Position numbers and translations under genes: made by a program. The notes below the pieces were generated by a model, which was not told where the DNA came from, ran no database searches, and worked only from the letters and a program-made list of their open reading frames with translations. Positions 2,696 through 18,257 of a stretch of DNA of 42,372 nt are shown piece by piece. Each line of letters begins with the position of its first letter. Position 1 is the stretch's first letter. Origin of the DNA: a virus; the IMG/VR virus record IMGVR_UViG_3300020215_000033, positions 1 through 42,372 of that record. The stretch is one strand, 5' to 3'.

Positions 2696-3217
2696 GTGGC
2701 GGTTGGAAAACGTTTAAGGTTTGAGATATTCAAGCGGGATAACTTTACTTGCCGGTACTGCGGCAACAAGTCCCCAAAAGTAATCCTAGAGGTCGATCAT
2801 ATCGTTCCTGTTTCAGAGGGCGGGAGCGATGATGAAATGAACCTTGCTACCTCTTGCTTCGATTGTAATCGAGGAAAATCAAACAGGAATCTTTCAGAAC
2901 AGATAACCGGTGAAGACCCGCACGATAAGGCCATTTTCCTTGCCGAAAGAGAGCGCCAGCTTCAAGAATACAACTACATTCAGTCCCAGATTGAAGAGAG
3001 GATAAGCAAGGAAGTCCATTGGCTTGCATCTAACTTTAGGATTAACGAGTACGTAGAAAGGGCCTTGCGCCAAATCCTTTACGACAATTCAGTTTACGAC
3101 GTGTCCCGTGCGCTGGAAATAGCGATTGAGAAAAGGGGACGCCATTCTGTTGACTGCATCCCGTATCTTAAAGGCATTTTGCGAAATTGGGCTAATGAAA
3201 AAAAGGAGACAGCCTAA
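2696..3217 (+). CDS. HNH endonuclease with DnaD-like C-terminal tail
   Basis: A 173-residue protein from GTG 2696 (SD GGGGGAGG). Residues 1-70 are an HNH nuclease: CRYC, then LEVDHIVPVSEGG, N-x-A, and CFDCNRGKSN, so the His-Asn-His metal site and both zinc-type CxxC pairs are present. Residues about 95-173 form a helical region ending PYLKGILRNWANEKK, which resembles the YxxxILxxW motif at the end of DnaD-type replisome organizers. The stop overlaps the next start (taATG). It may be a homing-type nuclease or a nuclease recruited to replication; the DnaD resemblance is inference. Confidence 0.75.
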   Translation: MAVGKRLRFEIFKRDNFTCRYCGNKSPKVILEVDHIVPVSEGGSDDEMNLATSCFDCNRGKSNRNLSEQITGEDPHDKAIFLAERERQLQEYNYIQSQIEERISKEVHWLASNFRINEYVERALRQILYDNSVYDVSRALEIAIEKRGRHSVDCIPYLKGILRNWANEKKETA

Positions 3218-4011: not shown

Positions 4012-4633
4012 GTTACAGCAGGCGGTTGATAAAGACTCCCCGCAATGGCGGGCGATGCAAGCCGAGGCCATGCAGAAGTCCGGCGTCCATGCTGGCAAGT
4101 GCCATCCGTGGATTCCGGCCGTAACCGTAGGGATCTGGCTAGTCGATGAGGGCAATAAGAAGTTCGTCCGCTTCCACGGTCAAGACGTGAAGCTCTACCG
4201 CAACCCGGTTAAGATCGGCCTAAGCTGGATTTGCACCTACAGCGAATGGGCCAAGGGCGGGAGCGTCTATTGCCATCGTATCGCGGGATACCCGGCAGGT
4301 ATGGGCAAGGAGTACACGGCTAGGTGGTTCCGGTCGGTTAAGCCGCTACAAGACATGACCGAGCTTTGGGCCGAGATGAAGCAGATTGGGCCGCTATTCC
4401 TAACGGACTTCGGCTTCTTCTGTCACCGGGACGAAGACGGGACGATAGCGGCCTACAGGCACCCGGAGCATGTTCATAGGGCGCTGCCGGACCCCGTTCA
4501 GCTTGGGTTTGAGGGGAAGGTCCCATCGCACGGCCATGCCAGAATCCACGCTATGGCCGGGGATGCATACGTTCAAGAAAAAGATGAGGATTACGGAGAC
4601 GCGCAGGAACCGACGGAGGACGTGCCTTTTTAG
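3983..4633 (+). CDS. protein with SSB-type acidic C-terminal tail
   Basis: A 216-residue protein from GTG 3983 (SD CGGAGG). I do not recognise a canonical OB fold. It ends in an acidic stretch and the hexapeptide TEDVPF, very close to the DDIPF/DDVPF tail by which bacterial SSB proteins recruit partner enzymes. The N-terminal part (VDKDSPQWRAMQAEAM) is helical; the middle is rich in aromatic residues (WICTYSEWAKGG, FGFFCHRDEDG). Placement next to the replication initiator and ligase supports a ssDNA-binding or replication-accessory role. Either a divergent SSB or a protein mimicking the SSB tail. Confidence 0.55.
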   Translation: MAKVQTEADRLQQAVDKDSPQWRAMQAEAMQKSGVHAGKCHPWIPAVTVGIWLVDEGNKKFVRFHGQDVKLYRNPVKIGLSWICTYSEWAKGGSVYCHRIAGYPAGMGKEYTARWFRSVKPLQDMTELWAEMKQIGPLFLTDFGFFCHRDEDGTIAAYRHPEHVHRALPDPVQLGFEGKVPSHGHARIHAMAGDAYVQEKDEDYGDAQEPTEDVPF

Positions 4634-4646
4634 GCAAGGAGAAATC

Positions 4647-5300
4647 ATGAAAGAGTACCACAAGATCAACACCTGTTGGATGCGGGATCAGAAAGGAAAC
4701 ATCATCGAGGGCCAATGGTCTGACCCGGTATTCGGATACCTTGCCAATAACGAATGGGTATTTACTGAGAAGGTTGACGGGACCAATATCCGGGCCTACT
4801 GGGATGGGAATAGGGTTACTTTTGGGGGCCGGACGGATGCGGCATCTATCCCGACATTCTTGCTTAATCGCTTAAACGATCTATTCGATACCACGCCAAA
4901 GCGCCAGAAGTTTTCGGAGGTGTTCGGCCAAGATCACGCCTGCCTCTATGGCGAGGGCTACGGGGCAAAGATTCAGAAGGGCGGCGGTAACTACAAGGCT
5001 GATGGCGTTGACTTCACGCTGTTTGACGTGGCCGTAGGTGATTGGTGGCTAATGCGTAAGGACGTTGAGGACGTTGCCGCAAAACTGGGATGCGACATCG
5101 TTCCGATTCTTGGGAACGGGACGCTCCATGATGGCATTGCTAGAACGCGGAACGGCTTCAATTCGACGTGGGGAGATTTTATTGCCGAAGGGATTGTAGC
5201 CAGGCCGGTAGTTGAGTTCAAGACCCGAAAGGGTGAGCGGGTTATAACCAAGATCAAGCACAGAGATTTTAAATTTCTTGGGGCCACTGTAGCCGCCTAG
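4647..5300 (+). CDS. RNA ligase family protein
   Basis: A 217-residue nucleotidyltransferase of the phage RNA ligase group. Motif I is EKVDGTNIR with the AMP-accepting lysine at about residue 42; later motifs are visible as GEGYGAKIQ, DFTLFDV, EGIVARP and the C-terminal TKIKHRDF (motif V, K-x-K). It would join nicked RNA (or RNA in RNA-DNA hybrids), typically to repair host-cleaved tRNA. ATG 4647 has SD AAGGAG. A longer reading frame upstream overlaps the previous gene and lacks an SD. There is no polynucleotide kinase nearby. Its presence beside a phage ribozyme that leaves a 5'-OH end is notable. Confidence 0.8.
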   Translation: MKEYHKINTCWMRDQKGNIIEGQWSDPVFGYLANNEWVFTEKVDGTNIRAYWDGNRVTFGGRTDAASIPTFLLNRLNDLFDTTPKRQKFSEVFGQDHACLYGEGYGAKIQKGGGNYKADGVDFTLFDVAVGDWWLMRKDVEDVAAKLGCDIVPILGNGTLHDGIARTRNGFNSTWGDFIAEGIVARPVVEFKTRKGERVITKIKHRDFKFLGATVAA

Positions 5301-13526: not shown

Positions 13527-13596
13527 GGTTGAGGGCTACGCTATGAAAAATGGCGCAGCCCTATTTTTTATCCCAATTTAGCGTAACCCCTCAACC
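13527..13596 (+). promoter_or_regulatory. long inverted repeat overlapping the early terminator
   Basis: GGTTGAGGGCTACGCT (13527-13542) can pair with AGCGTAACCCCTCAACC (13580-13596) as nine plus six base pairs with a small mismatch. The same left arm also forms the 5' side of the terminator stem at 13532-13562. The two structures are mutually exclusive, so this may be an anti-terminator/terminator switch at the early-late boundary. Confidence 0.45.
13532..13570 (+). terminator. Rho-independent terminator ending early operon
   Basis: AGGGCT-A-CGC (13532-13541) pairs with GCG-C-AGCCCT (13553-13562), one mismatch, followed directly by ATTTTTTA. It lies 66 bases after the last early gene. Confidence 0.8.
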
Positions 13597-13607
13597 AGGT
13601 TCGCTTG

Positions 13608-13640
13608 ACCCACTTCCGGCGGGGAGTGGGTTTCTTTTTT
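13608..13640 (+). terminator. second Rho-independent terminator of early operon
   Basis: ACCCACTTCC (13608-13617) and GGGAGTGGGT (13622-13631) form a strong stem with loop GGCG, followed by TTCTTTTTT. In tandem with the previous one it would strongly separate early from late transcription. Confidence 0.85.
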
Positions 13641-13664
13641 GTGTTTAGCGTTTCGGCGTGTGTT

Positions 13665-13835
13665 GTGTCGAGTCGCGTTGAAAGGAACTGGACGTGCGTT
13701 TACGTCGAGCACAACAAGTACGAGAGCGATAAGCGAAAGAGAAAGAGGTATCGGTGTCTTTACTGCAAGAGGCCGTTGCATCATACGCCCCATTCGCCGC
13801 ACAACCTGAGTTCCCGTGAGGCCAGAGGCGACTAA
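13665..13835 (+). CDS. possible basic zinc-ribbon protein
   Basis: The frame from GTG 13665 to TAA 13833-13835 gives 56 residues: WTCVYVEHNKYESDKRKRKR then YRCLYCKRPLHH, a basic linker and a possible zinc site. The frame extends upstream through the terminator, so the start is not fixed and there is no good SD. The cysteine layout resembles other small proteins here, but coding is not certain. Confidence 0.35.
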   Translation: MSSRVERNWTCVYVEHNKYESDKRKRKRYRCLYCKRPLHHTPHSPHNLSSREARGD

Positions 13836-13890
13836 TGGGGCGTGGGATGCTAGAGAGGATCGGAGCGTCCGGTACATGATTCCCTTTTTA

Positions 13891-13943
13891 CAAGCGCGGC
13901 TGATGAGGCTTAACGAGCCGAAACGAAGAGTACCGCGCCCTTG
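13891..13943 (+). ncRNA. hammerhead ribozyme (type I), self-cleaving
   Basis: All invariant core parts are present in order. Stem I 5' strand GCGCGG is at 13894-13899, then CUGAUGA at 13900-13906. Stem II is GGCU (13907-13910), loop UAACG, AGCC (13916-13919); then GAAA at 13920-13923. Stem III is minimal (A13923-U13931 and C13924-G13930, loop GAAGA). The cleavage triplet GUA is 13930-13932, and stem I 3' strand CCGCGC is at 13933-13938. Stem I extends through a CC bulge by CAA/UUG (13891-13893 with 13941-13943). Predicted cut is between A13932 and C13933. Stem I is the open helix, so type I. It lies in the sense orientation 120 bases before the terminase small subunit. Confidence 0.85.
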
Positions 13944-13976
13944 CGTCGGGAGTCAGCAGCAAGCGAAGCCTCTCAT

Positions 13977-14020
13977 GGCCGGGAGTAGTCTCCATGGTGA
14001 CATGGAGATAGGAACCGGCC
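13977..14020 (+). promoter_or_regulatory. two-tier RNA hairpin with GNRA loop in late leader
   Basis: GGCCGG (13977-13982) pairs with CCGGCC (14015-14020). Inside, TCTCCATG (13989-13996) pairs with CATGGAGA (14001-14008) around a GUGA tetraloop. The symmetric internal loop has AGUA on one side and GAA on the other, the signature pieces of the bulged-G (sarcin-ricin/loop E) module. It would form the new 5' end structure after ribozyme cleavage. A stabilising or protein-binding role is inferred. Confidence 0.6.
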
Positions 14021-14051: not shown

Positions 14052-14390
14052 ATGCCCTTCCAACCAGGCAAGAGCGGGAATCCGTCAGGAAGACCGAAGA
14101 AGACTAAGGAGCAGGTCGAGCTTGAGAAGCGGTGCCAGGAGTGGGTTTCACGAGAGGGATGGAACGCGCTCATGGAGATGGTGAAGCACCGCGACGTGAA
14201 GGTGAAGCAATGGGCGCTCTCAACGATCTTAGACCGGGGCTTCGGAAAGCCCGCCGAGGTACTGGATGTTACCACAAGGGACGAGTCTTCATTCAGCCCT
14301 GACGAGCTTGCAGCAAGCATTACCGAGCTTATCGCCGGAGAAAAGGCTCAAGGCGATGGAGCTGGTAAGCCAAACGAAGGAACTGCTTGA
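14052..14390 (+). CDS. terS: terminase small subunit-like protein
   Basis: A 112-residue protein starting MPFQPGKSGNPSGRPKKTKE; the FQPGKSGNPSGRPK start is typical of a family (DUF5681-like) often found directly upstream of terminase large subunits. The middle has VKHRDVKVKQWALSTILDRGFGKPAE, as in small terminases that recognise the packaging site. It overlaps the large subunit by 35 bases. The late leader with the ribozyme lies immediately upstream. Role inferred from position and sequence pattern. Confidence 0.75.
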   Translation: MPFQPGKSGNPSGRPKKTKEQVELEKRCQEWVSREGWNALMEMVKHRDVKVKQWALSTILDRGFGKPAEVLDVTTRDESSFSPDELAASITELIAGEKAQGDGAGKPNEGTA

Positions 14391-15792
14391 CCGTGAGGCG
14401 TTGCGGTTCTTCACGCCTAACGCGGCCCAGCAGAGATACATAGACGCCGTAGGCAGCCCGGAGTCATTTATAGTGATTTTCTCGGCGGGTAACGGTGTTG
14501 GCAAGACTGCGGCGACTGCGGCACTAGTCGCTGCAATCATTTGGCCTGAGCTTGCCCCAAAGAGCGTCTTCAAGTCCTGGGTCTTTCAGAACTGGCCCTA
14601 CCCCAAAGATTTCCGCATTGTCTCAACCCCGCAAGAGATAGCCGAAGGCGGCAGCATTCAGCGTGAGTTTAGGCGCTGGTTCCCCAAGGGCCAATACGAG
14701 GCCGTTAAGGGCGGCAAGCCCTACCTCTCGCAGTACACGGCCCGCGATTTCACGATCAACTTGATGTCCTACGACATGGCCCCTGAAGCGTTCGAGGGGG
14801 CCACTAACGGGCTGGTGATATTCAATGAGCCTCCGCCGAAAACGATCTTCAACGCCTGTGCGGCCCGTATGCGCCGAGGGGGCCGCCTTCTATTCCCCGG
14901 CACTCCGCTCATGGATGCAGCGTGGATCATGGACGATTTGGTGTCCAAGGCAGACGGCAAGTACATCTCCCTGGTTTCGGGCGACATCGAAGACAACTGC
15001 AAGGACCATTCCCCCAAAGGCCTCCTAGCTCATGCTGACATCGAAAAGATGCTCAAGAGCTACGACCCCGACGAGCTTGAGGCTAGGAAGTCGGGCAAGT
15101 TCATGCACCTGTCTGGCCGCATCTTCAAAACCTTTGACCGTTCCGTTCATGTCTCCGCCTCCGAGATCGTTCCTCCCTCAATCGGCGTAGCCCATTACCA
15201 GGTTGTCGATCCCGCCATTGGTAAGCCCCTAGCCGTATTGTGGGCCTACGTCGATCCCACTAAGACGGTCCATATCTACGACGAGTGGCCGGAATTCGAC
15301 TTCGAGGGCAGCAAGGATAGCGGGCTTAACGTGAGGGACTATGTCGAGCTATTTCGAGCGAGAGAAGGTAGACGAGGTATTCAGAAAAGGATTCTCGACC
15401 GGCATTTCGGAAATACCCGACGGGCTCTTGGAGGGCTCACGCTTAAACAGGAGTTCGCCGAGGCTGGTCTTGAATTTTCTGACTCCTACCACGTGGGCGA
15501 GAATCTTCCTGAAGTCGAAACGGGAATCCTGAAGGTCAAGGACTACCTCGCCTACGATAAGAGTAAGCCGCTAGACGCTATCAACCGCCCCCGGCTTGTC
15601 ATTAGCCCCAAGTGCAAAAACACGATAGCGGCCATGGAGAGATGGTCCCGCGATCCCAAGAACGGCAAGCCAAAAGAGGAATACAAGGACTTCGCCGATC
15701 TAGTGCGCTACCTGGTTATGGCTAACCCGGAGGTGGAGACGCCTAGGGACTGGTCTAGCAATGGTGGAGCGCATTACGGGGTAGGTGTTTGA
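14356..15792 (+). CDS. terL: terminase large subunit
   Basis: The ATP-driven DNA packaging motor and headful/site nuclease, about 478 residues. Walker A is GNGVGKT (about 45-51); Walker B is LVIFNE (about 152-157); a coupling-type segment LLFPGTP follows. The C-terminal RNase H-like nuclease has VVDPAIGKPLAVLWAYVD and a late Asp in KDFADLVRYLV. ATG 14356 is chosen since the protein then begins just before a helix leading to FTPNAAQQRYID. An in-frame ATG at 14266 would overlap the small subunit by 125 bases. Acts at the portal vertex. Confidence 0.9.
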   Translation: MELVSQTKELLDREALRFFTPNAAQQRYIDAVGSPESFIVIFSAGNGVGKTAATAALVAAIIWPELAPKSVFKSWVFQNWPYPKDFRIVSTPQEIAEGGSIQREFRRWFPKGQYEAVKGGKPYLSQYTARDFTINLMSYDMAPEAFEGATNGLVIFNEPPPKTIFNACAARMRRGGRLLFPGTPLMDAAWIMDDLVSKADGKYISLVSGDIEDNCKDHSPKGLLAHADIEKMLKSYDPDELEARKSGKFMHLSGRIFKTFDRSVHVSASEIVPPSIGVAHYQVVDPAIGKPLAVLWAYVDPTKTVHIYDEWPEFDFEGSKDSGLNVRDYVELFRAREGRRGIQKRILDRHFGNTRRALGGLTLKQEFAEAGLEFSDSYHVGENLPEVETGILKVKDYLAYDKSKPLDAINRPRLVISPKCKNTIAAMERWSRDPKNGKPKEEYKDFADLVRYLVMANPEVETPRDWSSNGGAHYGVGV

Positions 15793-15794
15793 CC

Positions 15795-15947
15795 ATGGTT
15801 AAACAATACGCCGACGAGCCGCTAGAGATTCTTATCTGCCCGCGCGGCTGCATCGCCGTTTCTGCCCCGCACGCGGCCTCCGACAAGTGCTTTAGGTGCA
15901 AAAAGAAGATGCTCCGTCAGAAGGCATGGGGCATAAGTGAAACATAG
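15795..15947 (+). CDS. small zinc-ribbon protein in late operon (50 aa)
   Basis: ATG 15795 follows the terminase stop. The product has CPRGC at 15-19 and CFRC at 32-35, an N- and C-terminal cysteine pair of a small ribbon, with a basic tail (KKKMLRQKAWG). It overlaps the next frame by 11 bases. Zinc-ribbon proteins in this position may assist head assembly or be accessory; unknown. Confidence 0.55.
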   Translation: MVKQYADEPLEILICPRGCIAVSAPHAASDKCFRCKKKMLRQKAWGISET

Positions 15948-16125
15948 CACGTCCATGCATGTCCCCGCGTCTTTTTACCCATTGGGCCTAAGCGCCCCTG
16001 ATGTCCCGGAGTACGGGCCTATCCACCGTGCCGGGAAGACAAAGGGTAAGACCCGCTCCCGCGTCACCTCCTTCGCCGGGCGGGCACCGATTTTGGGCAG
16101 GAGCGACCCTTATGGACCGTTCTAA
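15937..16125 (+). CDS. hypothetical protein (62 aa)
   Basis: From GTG 15937 (ATG 15955 is an alternative) the product is proline- and glycine-rich (VPASFYPLGLSAPDVPEYGP) with a basic, disordered C-terminal half. No domain recognised. It overlaps its neighbours slightly on both sides, in keeping with a real but short gene. Confidence 0.4.
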   Translation: MKHSTSMHVPASFYPLGLSAPDVPEYGPIHRAGKTKGKTRSRVTSFAGRAPILGRSDPYGPF

Positions 16126-16279
16126 GTGGGTGCAAGAGACGCATTCCGAGCCGCCCCGGCGGTATCACGCGATCTTCTGTTTTACCTGCCGGAAGACCGT
16201 TCCTTCAAAGTCTGCGGCAAAGAAGCATATGGGGCACGAAGTCGAGTATGTCGACGAGCGGGGATACCGAGATGATTGA
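16112..16279 (+). CDS. small C2H2-like zinc-finger protein (55 aa)
   Basis: ATG 16112 (AGGAG nine bases upstream). The protein contains CFTCRKTVPSKSAAKKHMGH, a C-x2-C...H-x2-H pattern close to a classic zinc finger. It ends within the start of the portal gene. Probably binds DNA or a protein; no assignment. Confidence 0.55.
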   Translation: MDRSKWVQETHSEPPRRYHAIFCFTCRKTVPSKSAAKKHMGHEVEYVDERGYRDD

Positions 16280-18257
16280 AGGCATGACGCCCGTCCCTCC
16301 CGCTGAGAATCCGATCATGGAGCCCATTGAGGCCCCGGACATGCAGGTCCTGTCCCGCGACCAGATGCTATCCGAACTTCATACATGGTGTAAGGAGTTC
16401 GTCCAGAAGTCCAAGCAATGGCGGCAGACCTCGTACGAGGCCGACTGGCTTAAGTGGCAGCGTGCGGCCCGTTCCCTCTACGACCCGGCCCTAGCCAAGA
16501 AAAAGGAGCCATGGCAGAGCCGCGCGGTATGGCCCGTTACCGCCTCCCATCGTGAAAACGCGATGGCCCAGCTATTCAAGACCGAGATAGGCCCTAGGCC
16601 GCCGCTGGATGTTAAGGCCCGCAAGGGCGTTGTCCCGCAAGAGATTCCAGGGGCCGATCAGTCCCAGAACATTAAAGACCTTGTTATCCGTGAGCGTGAG
16701 AAGTCGGGCTATGAGTTGGCGCGCAACGGGGTACTCGATGACAAGACTACTTACGGTTCAGGCTTTGCCCAGGTTTTCTTTGAAACGAAAGTCGAGGACC
16801 GTCTTGTCCAGGAGCCGATCCTGGAGGAGATTAACCCGTTTGACCTGGGTTCTGTCCAGAGGGCTCTAAGCGGGCAGCGCCAAGTAATCGGCTATAAGCC
16901 CGTGGTAAAGCCCCAGGTCATTTACCGGGGGGTAAGGTTCCGCGATTTGTCCATTTGGGACGTGTTCCCCGACCCGCAAAGCCTACAGATCAAAGGTCAT
17001 CCAATCGCTATCCGTTATTACATCACCTACGGCGAGATCGTAGACGGAGCTAAACCAACTCCAGACGGTAAGCCCGGGTACGTGTTGCCCGAGGCCGTGG
17101 AGAAGCTGCGGAGCGTGGCCTCCGAGGAAACGACTCCCGCCGACAAGCAGCAGGAGAAGGCCCAGCTTGGTATAGCCGATACTCGTGTAGAGCGCCCTTC
17201 CTACGGCCGCCTGCTTGAGTGCTACGAGGTCCAGGCCCGCCTGCCTAAGAAGTGGGTGCTAATCAATGGCGAGGAGATCGACGATCCCGAAGCCTTGATG
17301 CCTGCCAAGATTCGCATTCACGAGCAATGCGTCATCGCCGTGGAGATGAACGATTCCTACGACGGTGAGCCCAATATCTACAAAGATGACTACATGCCCG
17401 CTAAGGGCCAGTTCTACGGTGTGGGTATACCCGAGATGCTTAAAGACGTCCAGGACGTGACCAACGAGTCCATTAACCAGCGTTTAGACTCGGCTGCCGT
17501 GAGCCTGCTTAACGTCTATGCGGTGATTGAGAAGTCGGTTATCGACCCCAAAGACTTTACTCTTGGCCCTGGCTCCGCTATCCGGCTAAAAGCGATTGAT
17601 GGTATCACTCAGGTTGAGCACCTCCTGCGGAAGATAGACATGGGGAGTATTGACCGTGCGGCCTTCATTGAGCCCCAGGAATGGGAGAGGGCGGCCCAGG
17701 AGCGCACGTCGATTACGCAGACGAGCCTGGGGACTGAGGACAACACAGACACAACGCTTGGGGCCCAGAAGATTCAGCAGGGAGTAACCGGGGCTAAGCT
17801 CGCCTATATCGGGATGCTATCCGAGTACGGATTCCAGAAAGAGATTTTTAACGCCTACTGGAAGCTCATCTATCAGAACTATCAGCCCGAGGACTACGCC
17901 AAGGCCCTTGGACCGGAGCGCGCGGCGACCATTGTCCCCATGAGCCCGGAGCAGATAGAGAGCGATTACCAGTACTTCAGCCTGGGCATATTCGAGGCCG
18001 AGAATAAGGCGCTTAGACAGGCCCGCATGGCCCAGTGGGACCAGCAGTTTGGCGCAGCGCCGTGGGCTAACCGCGTAGAGGTGGCGAAGTCCGAGCTGCA
18101 ATCCATGGACGAGGACCCGGAGCGGTTCATTATCCAAGAGGCCGAGGCCGTACAGATCATGCAGAAGGCCCAGGAGATGGCCCAGGGCATGGCTCAACAG
18201 CAGATGGCTATGCAGCAAGAGGCTGAGAACGCGAAGACCCAGGAGCGGCCCAAGTGA
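16272..18257 (+). CDS. portal protein
   Basis: A portal of about 661 residues, of the large podovirus type that forms the dodecameric DNA channel at one capsid vertex. Signature regions include KEPWQSRAVWPVTASHREN near the N terminus, VFPDPQ with the surrounding wing region, KGQFYGVGIPEMLKDVQ in the middle (stem and crown side), and a long C-terminal helical barrel-like tail rich in Gln and Met (MAQGMAQQQMAMQQEAEN). ATG 16272 is favoured over the upstream ATG 16248, which overlaps the zinc-finger gene further. It sits between the terminase and scaffold as expected. Confidence 0.85.
   Translation: MIEGMTPVPPAENPIMEPIEAPDMQVLSRDQMLSELHTWCKEFVQKSKQWRQTSYEADWLKWQRAARSLYDPALAKKKEPWQSRAVWPVTASHRENAMAQLFKTEIGPRPPLDVKARKGVVPQEIPGADQSQNIKDLVIREREKSGYELARNGVLDDKTTYGSGFAQVFFETKVEDRLVQEPILEEINPFDLGSVQRALSGQRQVIGYKPVVKPQVIYRGVRFRDLSIWDVFPDPQSLQIKGHPIAIRYYITYGEIVDGAKPTPDGKPGYVLPEAVEKLRSVASEETTPADKQQEKAQLGIADTRVERPSYGRLLECYEVQARLPKKWVLINGEEIDDPEALMPAKIRIHEQCVIAVEMNDSYDGEPNIYKDDYMPAKGQFYGVGIPEMLKDVQDVTNESINQRLDSAAVSLLNVYAVIEKSVIDPKDFTLGPGSAIRLKAIDGITQVEHLLRKIDMGSIDRAAFIEPQEWERAAQERTSITQTSLGTEDNTDTTLGAQKIQQGVTGAKLAYIGMLSEYGFQKEIFNAYWKLIYQNYQPEDYAKALGPERAATIVPMSPEQIESDYQYFSLGIFEAENKALRQARMAQWDQQFGAAPWANRVEVAKSELQSMDEDPERFIIQEAEAVQIMQKAQEMAQGMAQQQMAMQQEAENAKTQERPK

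Follow-up and report, generated by a model that had tools for sequence, protein, structure and literature searches.

A type I hammerhead ribozyme within a probably mobile cassette at the packaging gene cluster of related phages

The window analysed in this work, a stretch of 42,372 nt of viral DNA, carries a type I hammerhead ribozyme motif at positions 13894..13938 of the + strand, with a predicted cleavage site between A13932 and C13933. The motif is part of a unit of ~400 nt that comprises, in this order, a small Cys-rich ORF, a hairpin (hp1), the hammerhead and a second, two-tier hairpin (hp2), and the same order is found in two contigs of uncultivated viruses, L054 and L069. Our best explanation, to which we give a probability of about 0.7, is that a genuine type I hammerhead resides in a unit that has been inserted at differing junctions of the packaging gene cluster, where it would cleave the late transcript. 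Since the motif recurs together with the Cys-rich gene and the two hairpins at different places in two distant relatives, we see in it a travelling RNA-cutting cassette and not a one-off, and this hammerhead-bearing cassette is probably mobile.

The hammerhead motif

Read on the + strand, 13894-13938 consists of GCGCGG, CUGAUGA, GGCU-UAACG-AGCC, GAAA, C-GAAGA-G, UA and CCGCGC, and its helices follow the type I order, with an open stem I and closed stems II and III. The inner stem I pairs GCGCGG (13894-13899) with CCGCGC (13933-13938) at six of six positions, and the 4 bp of stem II (GGCU 13907-13910 with AGCC 13916-13919) enclose the loop UAACG. Core positions C3 to A9 are CUGAUGA (13900-13906), GAAA occupies 13920-13923, and the triplet GUA ends at 13932, after which the cut is predicted. 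Stem III is short but closed, with only 2 bp in the window (A13923-U13931 and C13924-G13930) and the loop GAAGA. All the nucleotides that define the type I core (C3 U4 G5 A6 N7 G8 A9, G12 A13 A14, the A15.1-U16.1 pair and H17) are present in the window, and likewise in L054 and L069. The first-pass annotation of this DNA had placed at 13891-13943 a hammerhead with a complete type I core, a 6-bp stem I and a 4-bp stem II, in which all the conserved core nucleotides fit, and our reading of the sequence bears this out (13900-13906, 13920-13923 and 13931-13932).

A comparison with the Rfam hammerhead models, also proposed in that annotation, gave a match below threshold only. A permissive search of the window gave the hammerhead model Hammerhead_HH9 at 16.9 bits (E=0.2), which lies below the gathering score of 52; at curated thresholds there was no match in the window, and neither the L054 nor the L069 hammerhead was recognised. 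Such a sub-threshold score is a detection limit, not a biological criterion. A type I descriptor weaker than the actual site (at least 4 pairs in stem I, at least 3 in stem II and at least 1 in stem III beyond the A-U) is expected 0.004 times per window, and 13894-13938 was its sole match when the window was scanned. A chance origin of the motif is unlikely, because 40 Mb of simulated sequence contained no match with at least 4 pairs in both stem I and stem II.

Copies of the unit in two relatives

Among viral contigs, a pattern scan picked out a single one that shares the architecture of the window, L008 (whole contig, L054), and the alignment of window and L054 matches throughout, from the 3′ part of the small ORF over hp1 and the hammerhead to hp2. 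The 4.3-kb scaffold L054 contains N runs as well as an inverted repeat of 38 nt, for which reason its gene order is less certain; the stretch compared here (2590-2890) is free of N. The two arms of that repeat (L054:1219-1254 and 2919-2954) lie beside the N runs and are probably an assembly artefact. L069 came from a search for portal relatives, and the third copy was seen in it by tblastn with the small ORF and by reading of the sequence.

Three pattern scans (hp1 plus hammerhead; the block after stem I; GACGAACC plus core) had true matches only in the L008/L054 and L069 contigs; the remaining matches were coding sequence or chance and were discarded. When 734 kb of related contigs (about 90, picked independently of the motif) were scanned with a slightly laxer hammerhead descriptor, the L069 unit and a second copy of the L054 stretch (L068) were found and no other hammerhead. 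Covariance models of hp2 (R1) and of hp1 with the hammerhead (R2), applied to 76-78 contigs (682 kb for R1), strongly matched the window, L054 and L069 units only. The portal-profile genome scan led to one distant locus, which lacks the unit, and a search of the phage collection gave no DNA match to the window and none for the small ORF or the portal, so that it offers no cultured relative. Only three copies of the unit are known, and each of the three stretches has a single hammerhead, with no clustered pair flanking a gene.

The small ORF (13641..13835, + strand, GTG start) encodes 64 residues with the pattern RNWTC...HN...KRYRCLYCKRPL, and its homologues adjoin the hammerhead in L054 (45-52% identity to the window) and in L069 (40% over 43 aa). 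Between window and L054, differences at the three codon positions number 9/8/18, a third-position excess as for a coding gene. No Pfam or PHROG match was obtained at threshold, the AlphaFold model (mean pLDDT 51) is unreliable and too poor for a structure search, and the label zinc-ribbon-like, which we use tentatively, has the cysteine pattern as its sole basis. Upstream of the hammerhead, hp1 (13845..13870, + strand) reads GGAUGC-UAGAGAGGAUCGGA-GCGUCC, with the counterparts AGGCGC-UAGGAUGGAUCGGA-GCGUCA in L054 and AAUGCC-AGGAGAGGUCGG-GGCAUU in L069. The two-tier hairpin noted earlier at 13977-14020 is real: hp2 (13977..14020, + strand), just upstream of a start codon, has an outer stem GGCCGG/CCGGCC and an inner stem UCUCCAUG-GUGA-CAUGGAGA, and its architecture is conserved in L054 and L069. 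In both hairpins most pairs are retained despite base changes.

The hammerhead core is identical although the window and L054 sequences are only about 67% identical. All three units have 6 bp in the inner stem I; in the order window/L054/L069, pairs 1 to 6 are GC/AU/AU, CG/CG/CG, GC/GC/AU, CG/CG/CG, GC/GC/GC and GC/CG/UA. Stem II is GGCU-AGCC in the window and GGGG-CCCC in L054; in L069 it is CCGG-CCGG, and a U-U stands at the base. Both stems show compensatory double-sided changes across the units (n=3 sequences), and the homologous units keep core and stem I pairings alike.

Stem I extends further than its inner part. With the outer stem the hammerhead spans 13877..13955 (+ strand) in the MFE fold; 8 bp pair UGAUUCCC (13877-13884) with GGGAGUCA (13948-13955), and L054 and L069 each have an outer stem of 7 bp. 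The internal loop in between is UUUUUACAA / CCUUGCGUC in the window, and its 3′ side has exactly 9 nt in all three units (CCUUGCGUC in the window, CCCUGCAAA and CCCCGCAAA in L054 and L069), with CCYYGC in common. It is this 9-nt 3′ loop and the outer stem I that the relatives keep, and not the CAA/UUG extension across a CC bulge that had been proposed at first. In each of the three units the MFE fold includes the inner and outer stem I together with stem II and hp2; when the window motif is folded in isolation, the hammerhead structure is 1.6 kcal/mol less stable than the MFE structure, which shares its stems. Loop II is UAAYG in two of the three units, and a pseudoknot search found Watson-Crick complementarity between loop II and the 5′ loop strand of stem I over just 3-5 nt, too short a stretch to prove a contact between the two.

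Could the conserved RNA instead be a small overlapping protein gene, with the hammerhead as its by-product? Window and L054 both have an open frame with the reading ...RLMR.N.PK..V.RPC, and L069 can likewise be read through in one frame. Across the hammerhead, however, the codon-position differences are 4/5/7, with no clear third-position excess of the kind seen in the real ORF, and on this count the overlapping ORF was rejected; moreover, the conserved blocks of L069 fall in shifted frames and the stems covary. We regard this alternative as highly improbable. The identity of the motif as a hammerhead ribozyme is well supported by its intact core, the covarying stems in two divergent relatives and the MFE folds, and the fold is very probably under selection.

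Would it cleave? The main doubt comes from the 2-bp stem III of the window and L054, because type I hammerheads whose helix III is weak are often poor at cleaving as monomers and can need dimers (PMC7761336). A further doubt concerns L069, whose U-U mismatch sits at the base of stem II, where mispairing was a ground for rejecting candidates in a published survey (PMC3088659). A structurally conserved hammerhead that is catalytically dead or very slow, its stem III being too short, would agree with the 2-bp helices and with the monomer inactivity of such forms (PMC7761336), but hardly with a core that has stayed unchanged at this level of divergence. In L069, which has the triplet GUC, stem III is long, with at least 8 pairs, and this argues that the lineage is catalytic; cleavage of the dimer type is also possible. 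We consider a dead or very slow ribozyme improbable and cleavage in the cell likely.

Genomic position and distribution

The unit of the window follows a strong inverted-repeat hairpin and a terminator-like hairpin and precedes the gene for a terminase small subunit-like protein (14052..14390, + strand; Pfam DUF5681, E=9e-8), after which comes the gene for the terminase large subunit (TerL, 14266-15792). The annotation had put the small subunit (TerS) about 120 bases after the cut, and its start is in fact 119 nt from it. In L069 the unit lies between a TerS-like HTH gene (1922-2401) and TerL (2835), and in L054 between TerL and portal. In each of the three phages the gene that comes next after the unit, on the same strand, is a packaging or portal gene, and it is a different one each time. 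L047 and L048 resemble the window in a homologous upstream gene (32%), TerS (45%) and portal (55%), and have no unit at the corresponding place. Nor is there a unit at the corresponding place in L131, which has the TerL nearest to that of L069 (74%) and two other ORFs between TerS and TerL. Because some contigs are fragmentary, absence of the unit is meaningful only if the contig includes the junction in question; more than 20 contigs include the TerL-portal junction. When the TerL proteins of 26 phages are placed on a tree, the distribution of the three carriers requires 3 separate changes, all of them forced by well supported branches.

These data bear on the view of the first-pass annotation, in which the hammerhead belongs to the leader of the late operon and would trim the 5′ end of the late mRNA, and on the reading of that leader as a fixed regulatory one, inherited vertically. 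That the unit lies upstream of a packaging or portal gene holds, in the same orientation in three of three phages, and hp2 stays beside the start codon. The fixed leader is unsupported, because L047 and L048 share the neighbouring genes without the unit and because the three phages have it at three different junctions; the changing downstream gene and the three changes required by the TerL tree also speak against it, and we hold it to be unlikely. The same unit is found at different loci in related genomes, at three junctions and with three tree changes, which is the mark of a mobile element; the three diverged copies revealed neither element ends nor target-site duplications. We lean towards a unit that is mobile or has been repeatedly acquired.

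Two further small Cys-rich ORFs lie between TerL and portal in the window (15795-16280), and many relatives carry a homologue of the second (16113-16279) at this position. An HNH endonuclease gene (2696-3217), near RecT and exonuclease genes, could be a trans-acting helper for a non-autonomous element.

Proposed role of the cut

Hammerheads cleave by internal phosphoester transfer, leaving a 5′-OH and a 2′,3′-cyclic phosphate. We propose that, in related phages, the unit entered the packaging gene cluster at differing intergenic junctions and that, when late transcription crosses it, stem I would fold around the core and the RNA would cleave itself after A13932. The cut would part the small-ORF RNA, ending in the cyclic phosphate, from the downstream packaging mRNA, beginning with the 5′-OH, on which hp2 would lie about 45 nt from the new end, ahead of the translation start. 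Such a hairpin-bearing 5′-OH end should withstand 5′-end-dependent decay, and, at whichever junction the unit is inserted, the downstream genes would probably gain a 5′ leader that is uniform, stable and independent. The chances that the main benefit falls on the downstream mRNA seem to us about even.

Alternatively, the ribozyme may serve the upstream small ORF, either by making the 3′ end of its mRNA or because cleavage is controlled by the ORF product through binding to the hairpins, downstream effects being incidental. ORF and RNA travel together in three of three copies, and the predicted cut in the window is about 97 nt past the ORF stop codon. But hp2, which lies 3′ of the cut, shows the same degree of conservation as the hammerhead, which points to a downstream role too, and the predicted fold of the ORF product is unreliable; we find this alternative doubtful.

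If cleavage frees the downstream message as we propose, the unit might represent a novel class of small mobile phage element, in which the hammerhead makes insertion between essential packaging genes tolerable: the element would cut itself off the message and give the downstream gene a hairpin-protected 5′ end, hiding its presence as self-splicing introns do. We offer this only tentatively.

The phage does encode an RNA ligase, as had been stated (gene 4470-5300; PF09414, E=3e-20), which is Rnl2-like and weakly matches T4 RNA ligase 2. Ligases of the Rnl2 type require 5′-phosphate and 3′-OH ends. This type cannot seal hammerhead-cut ends unaided, and the ligase lends no support to a simple splicing or circularisation model.

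Relation to known hammerheads

Hammerheads of phages and prophages are already known, some of them clustered and flanking genes (PMC3088659), as are minimal type I forms in retroelements (PMC7761336). The motif shares with the type I hammerheads of bacteria and phages (Rfam clan CL00010) the core, the open stem I, the closed stems II and III and the NUH triplet, and also the phage or prophage setting (PMC3088659); it differs in the 2-bp stem III of the window, below Rfam thresholds, and in being a single ribozyme that shares its unit, beside packaging genes, with a Cys-rich ORF and two hairpins. The clustered prophage hammerheads that flank single genes (PMC3088659, Fig. 3) likewise combine a phage gene with RNA that cleaves itself and would divide a polycistronic transcript, but they come in twos or threes, whereas here there is one, and the same ORF and flanking hairpins accompany every copy while the genomic position changes. 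Penelope-like elements and retrozymes (PMC7761336) have minimal type I hammerheads with a very weak helix III and an association with mobility, as here; our unit belongs to a virus of bacteria and has a clear stem I internal loop, and neither a reverse transcriptase nor tandem copies were seen. The hammerhead of the haloviruses HF1/HF2, 13 nt upstream of a helicase gene (PMC3088659), likewise lies in the 5′ leader of a phage gene, with an altered core, whereas the core of the window is standard. A literature search, which covered few subscription journals, found no hammerhead at terminase genes and no description of such a unit. The ribozyme chemistry is ordinary; the unit and its wandering position are, as far as could be found, undescribed.

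What hammerheads do in bacteria and phages has yet to be settled (PMC6155905). The present one belongs to a recurring unit in which the gene, the hairpins and the class of downstream gene are defined, and this provides a model of the purpose of the cut that can be tested; the combination of hp1, a 6-bp inner stem I, the 9-nt loop and hp2 is a search template for members overlooked by Rfam. The viral contigs L011, L016, L020 and L025 also contain ordinary type I hammerheads, their stem III normal, in pairs about 540-940 nt apart, which resemble the published clustered prophage hammerheads.

Lastly, the region upstream of the unit (13527-13632) folds far better than its shuffles (z -4.5). A long inverted repeat, GGUUGAGGGCUACGCUA / UAGCGUAACCCCUCAACC, encloses an alternative terminator-like hairpin, GGGCUACGC / GCGCAGCCC, with a U-run, and is followed by a second, intrinsic-terminator-like hairpin (13607..13632, + strand). 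Ahead of its terminase genes the unit-less relative L047 likewise shows a long hairpin of comparable kind, together with a terminator-like one, and the region is possibly a terminator/antiterminator switch of the late operon.
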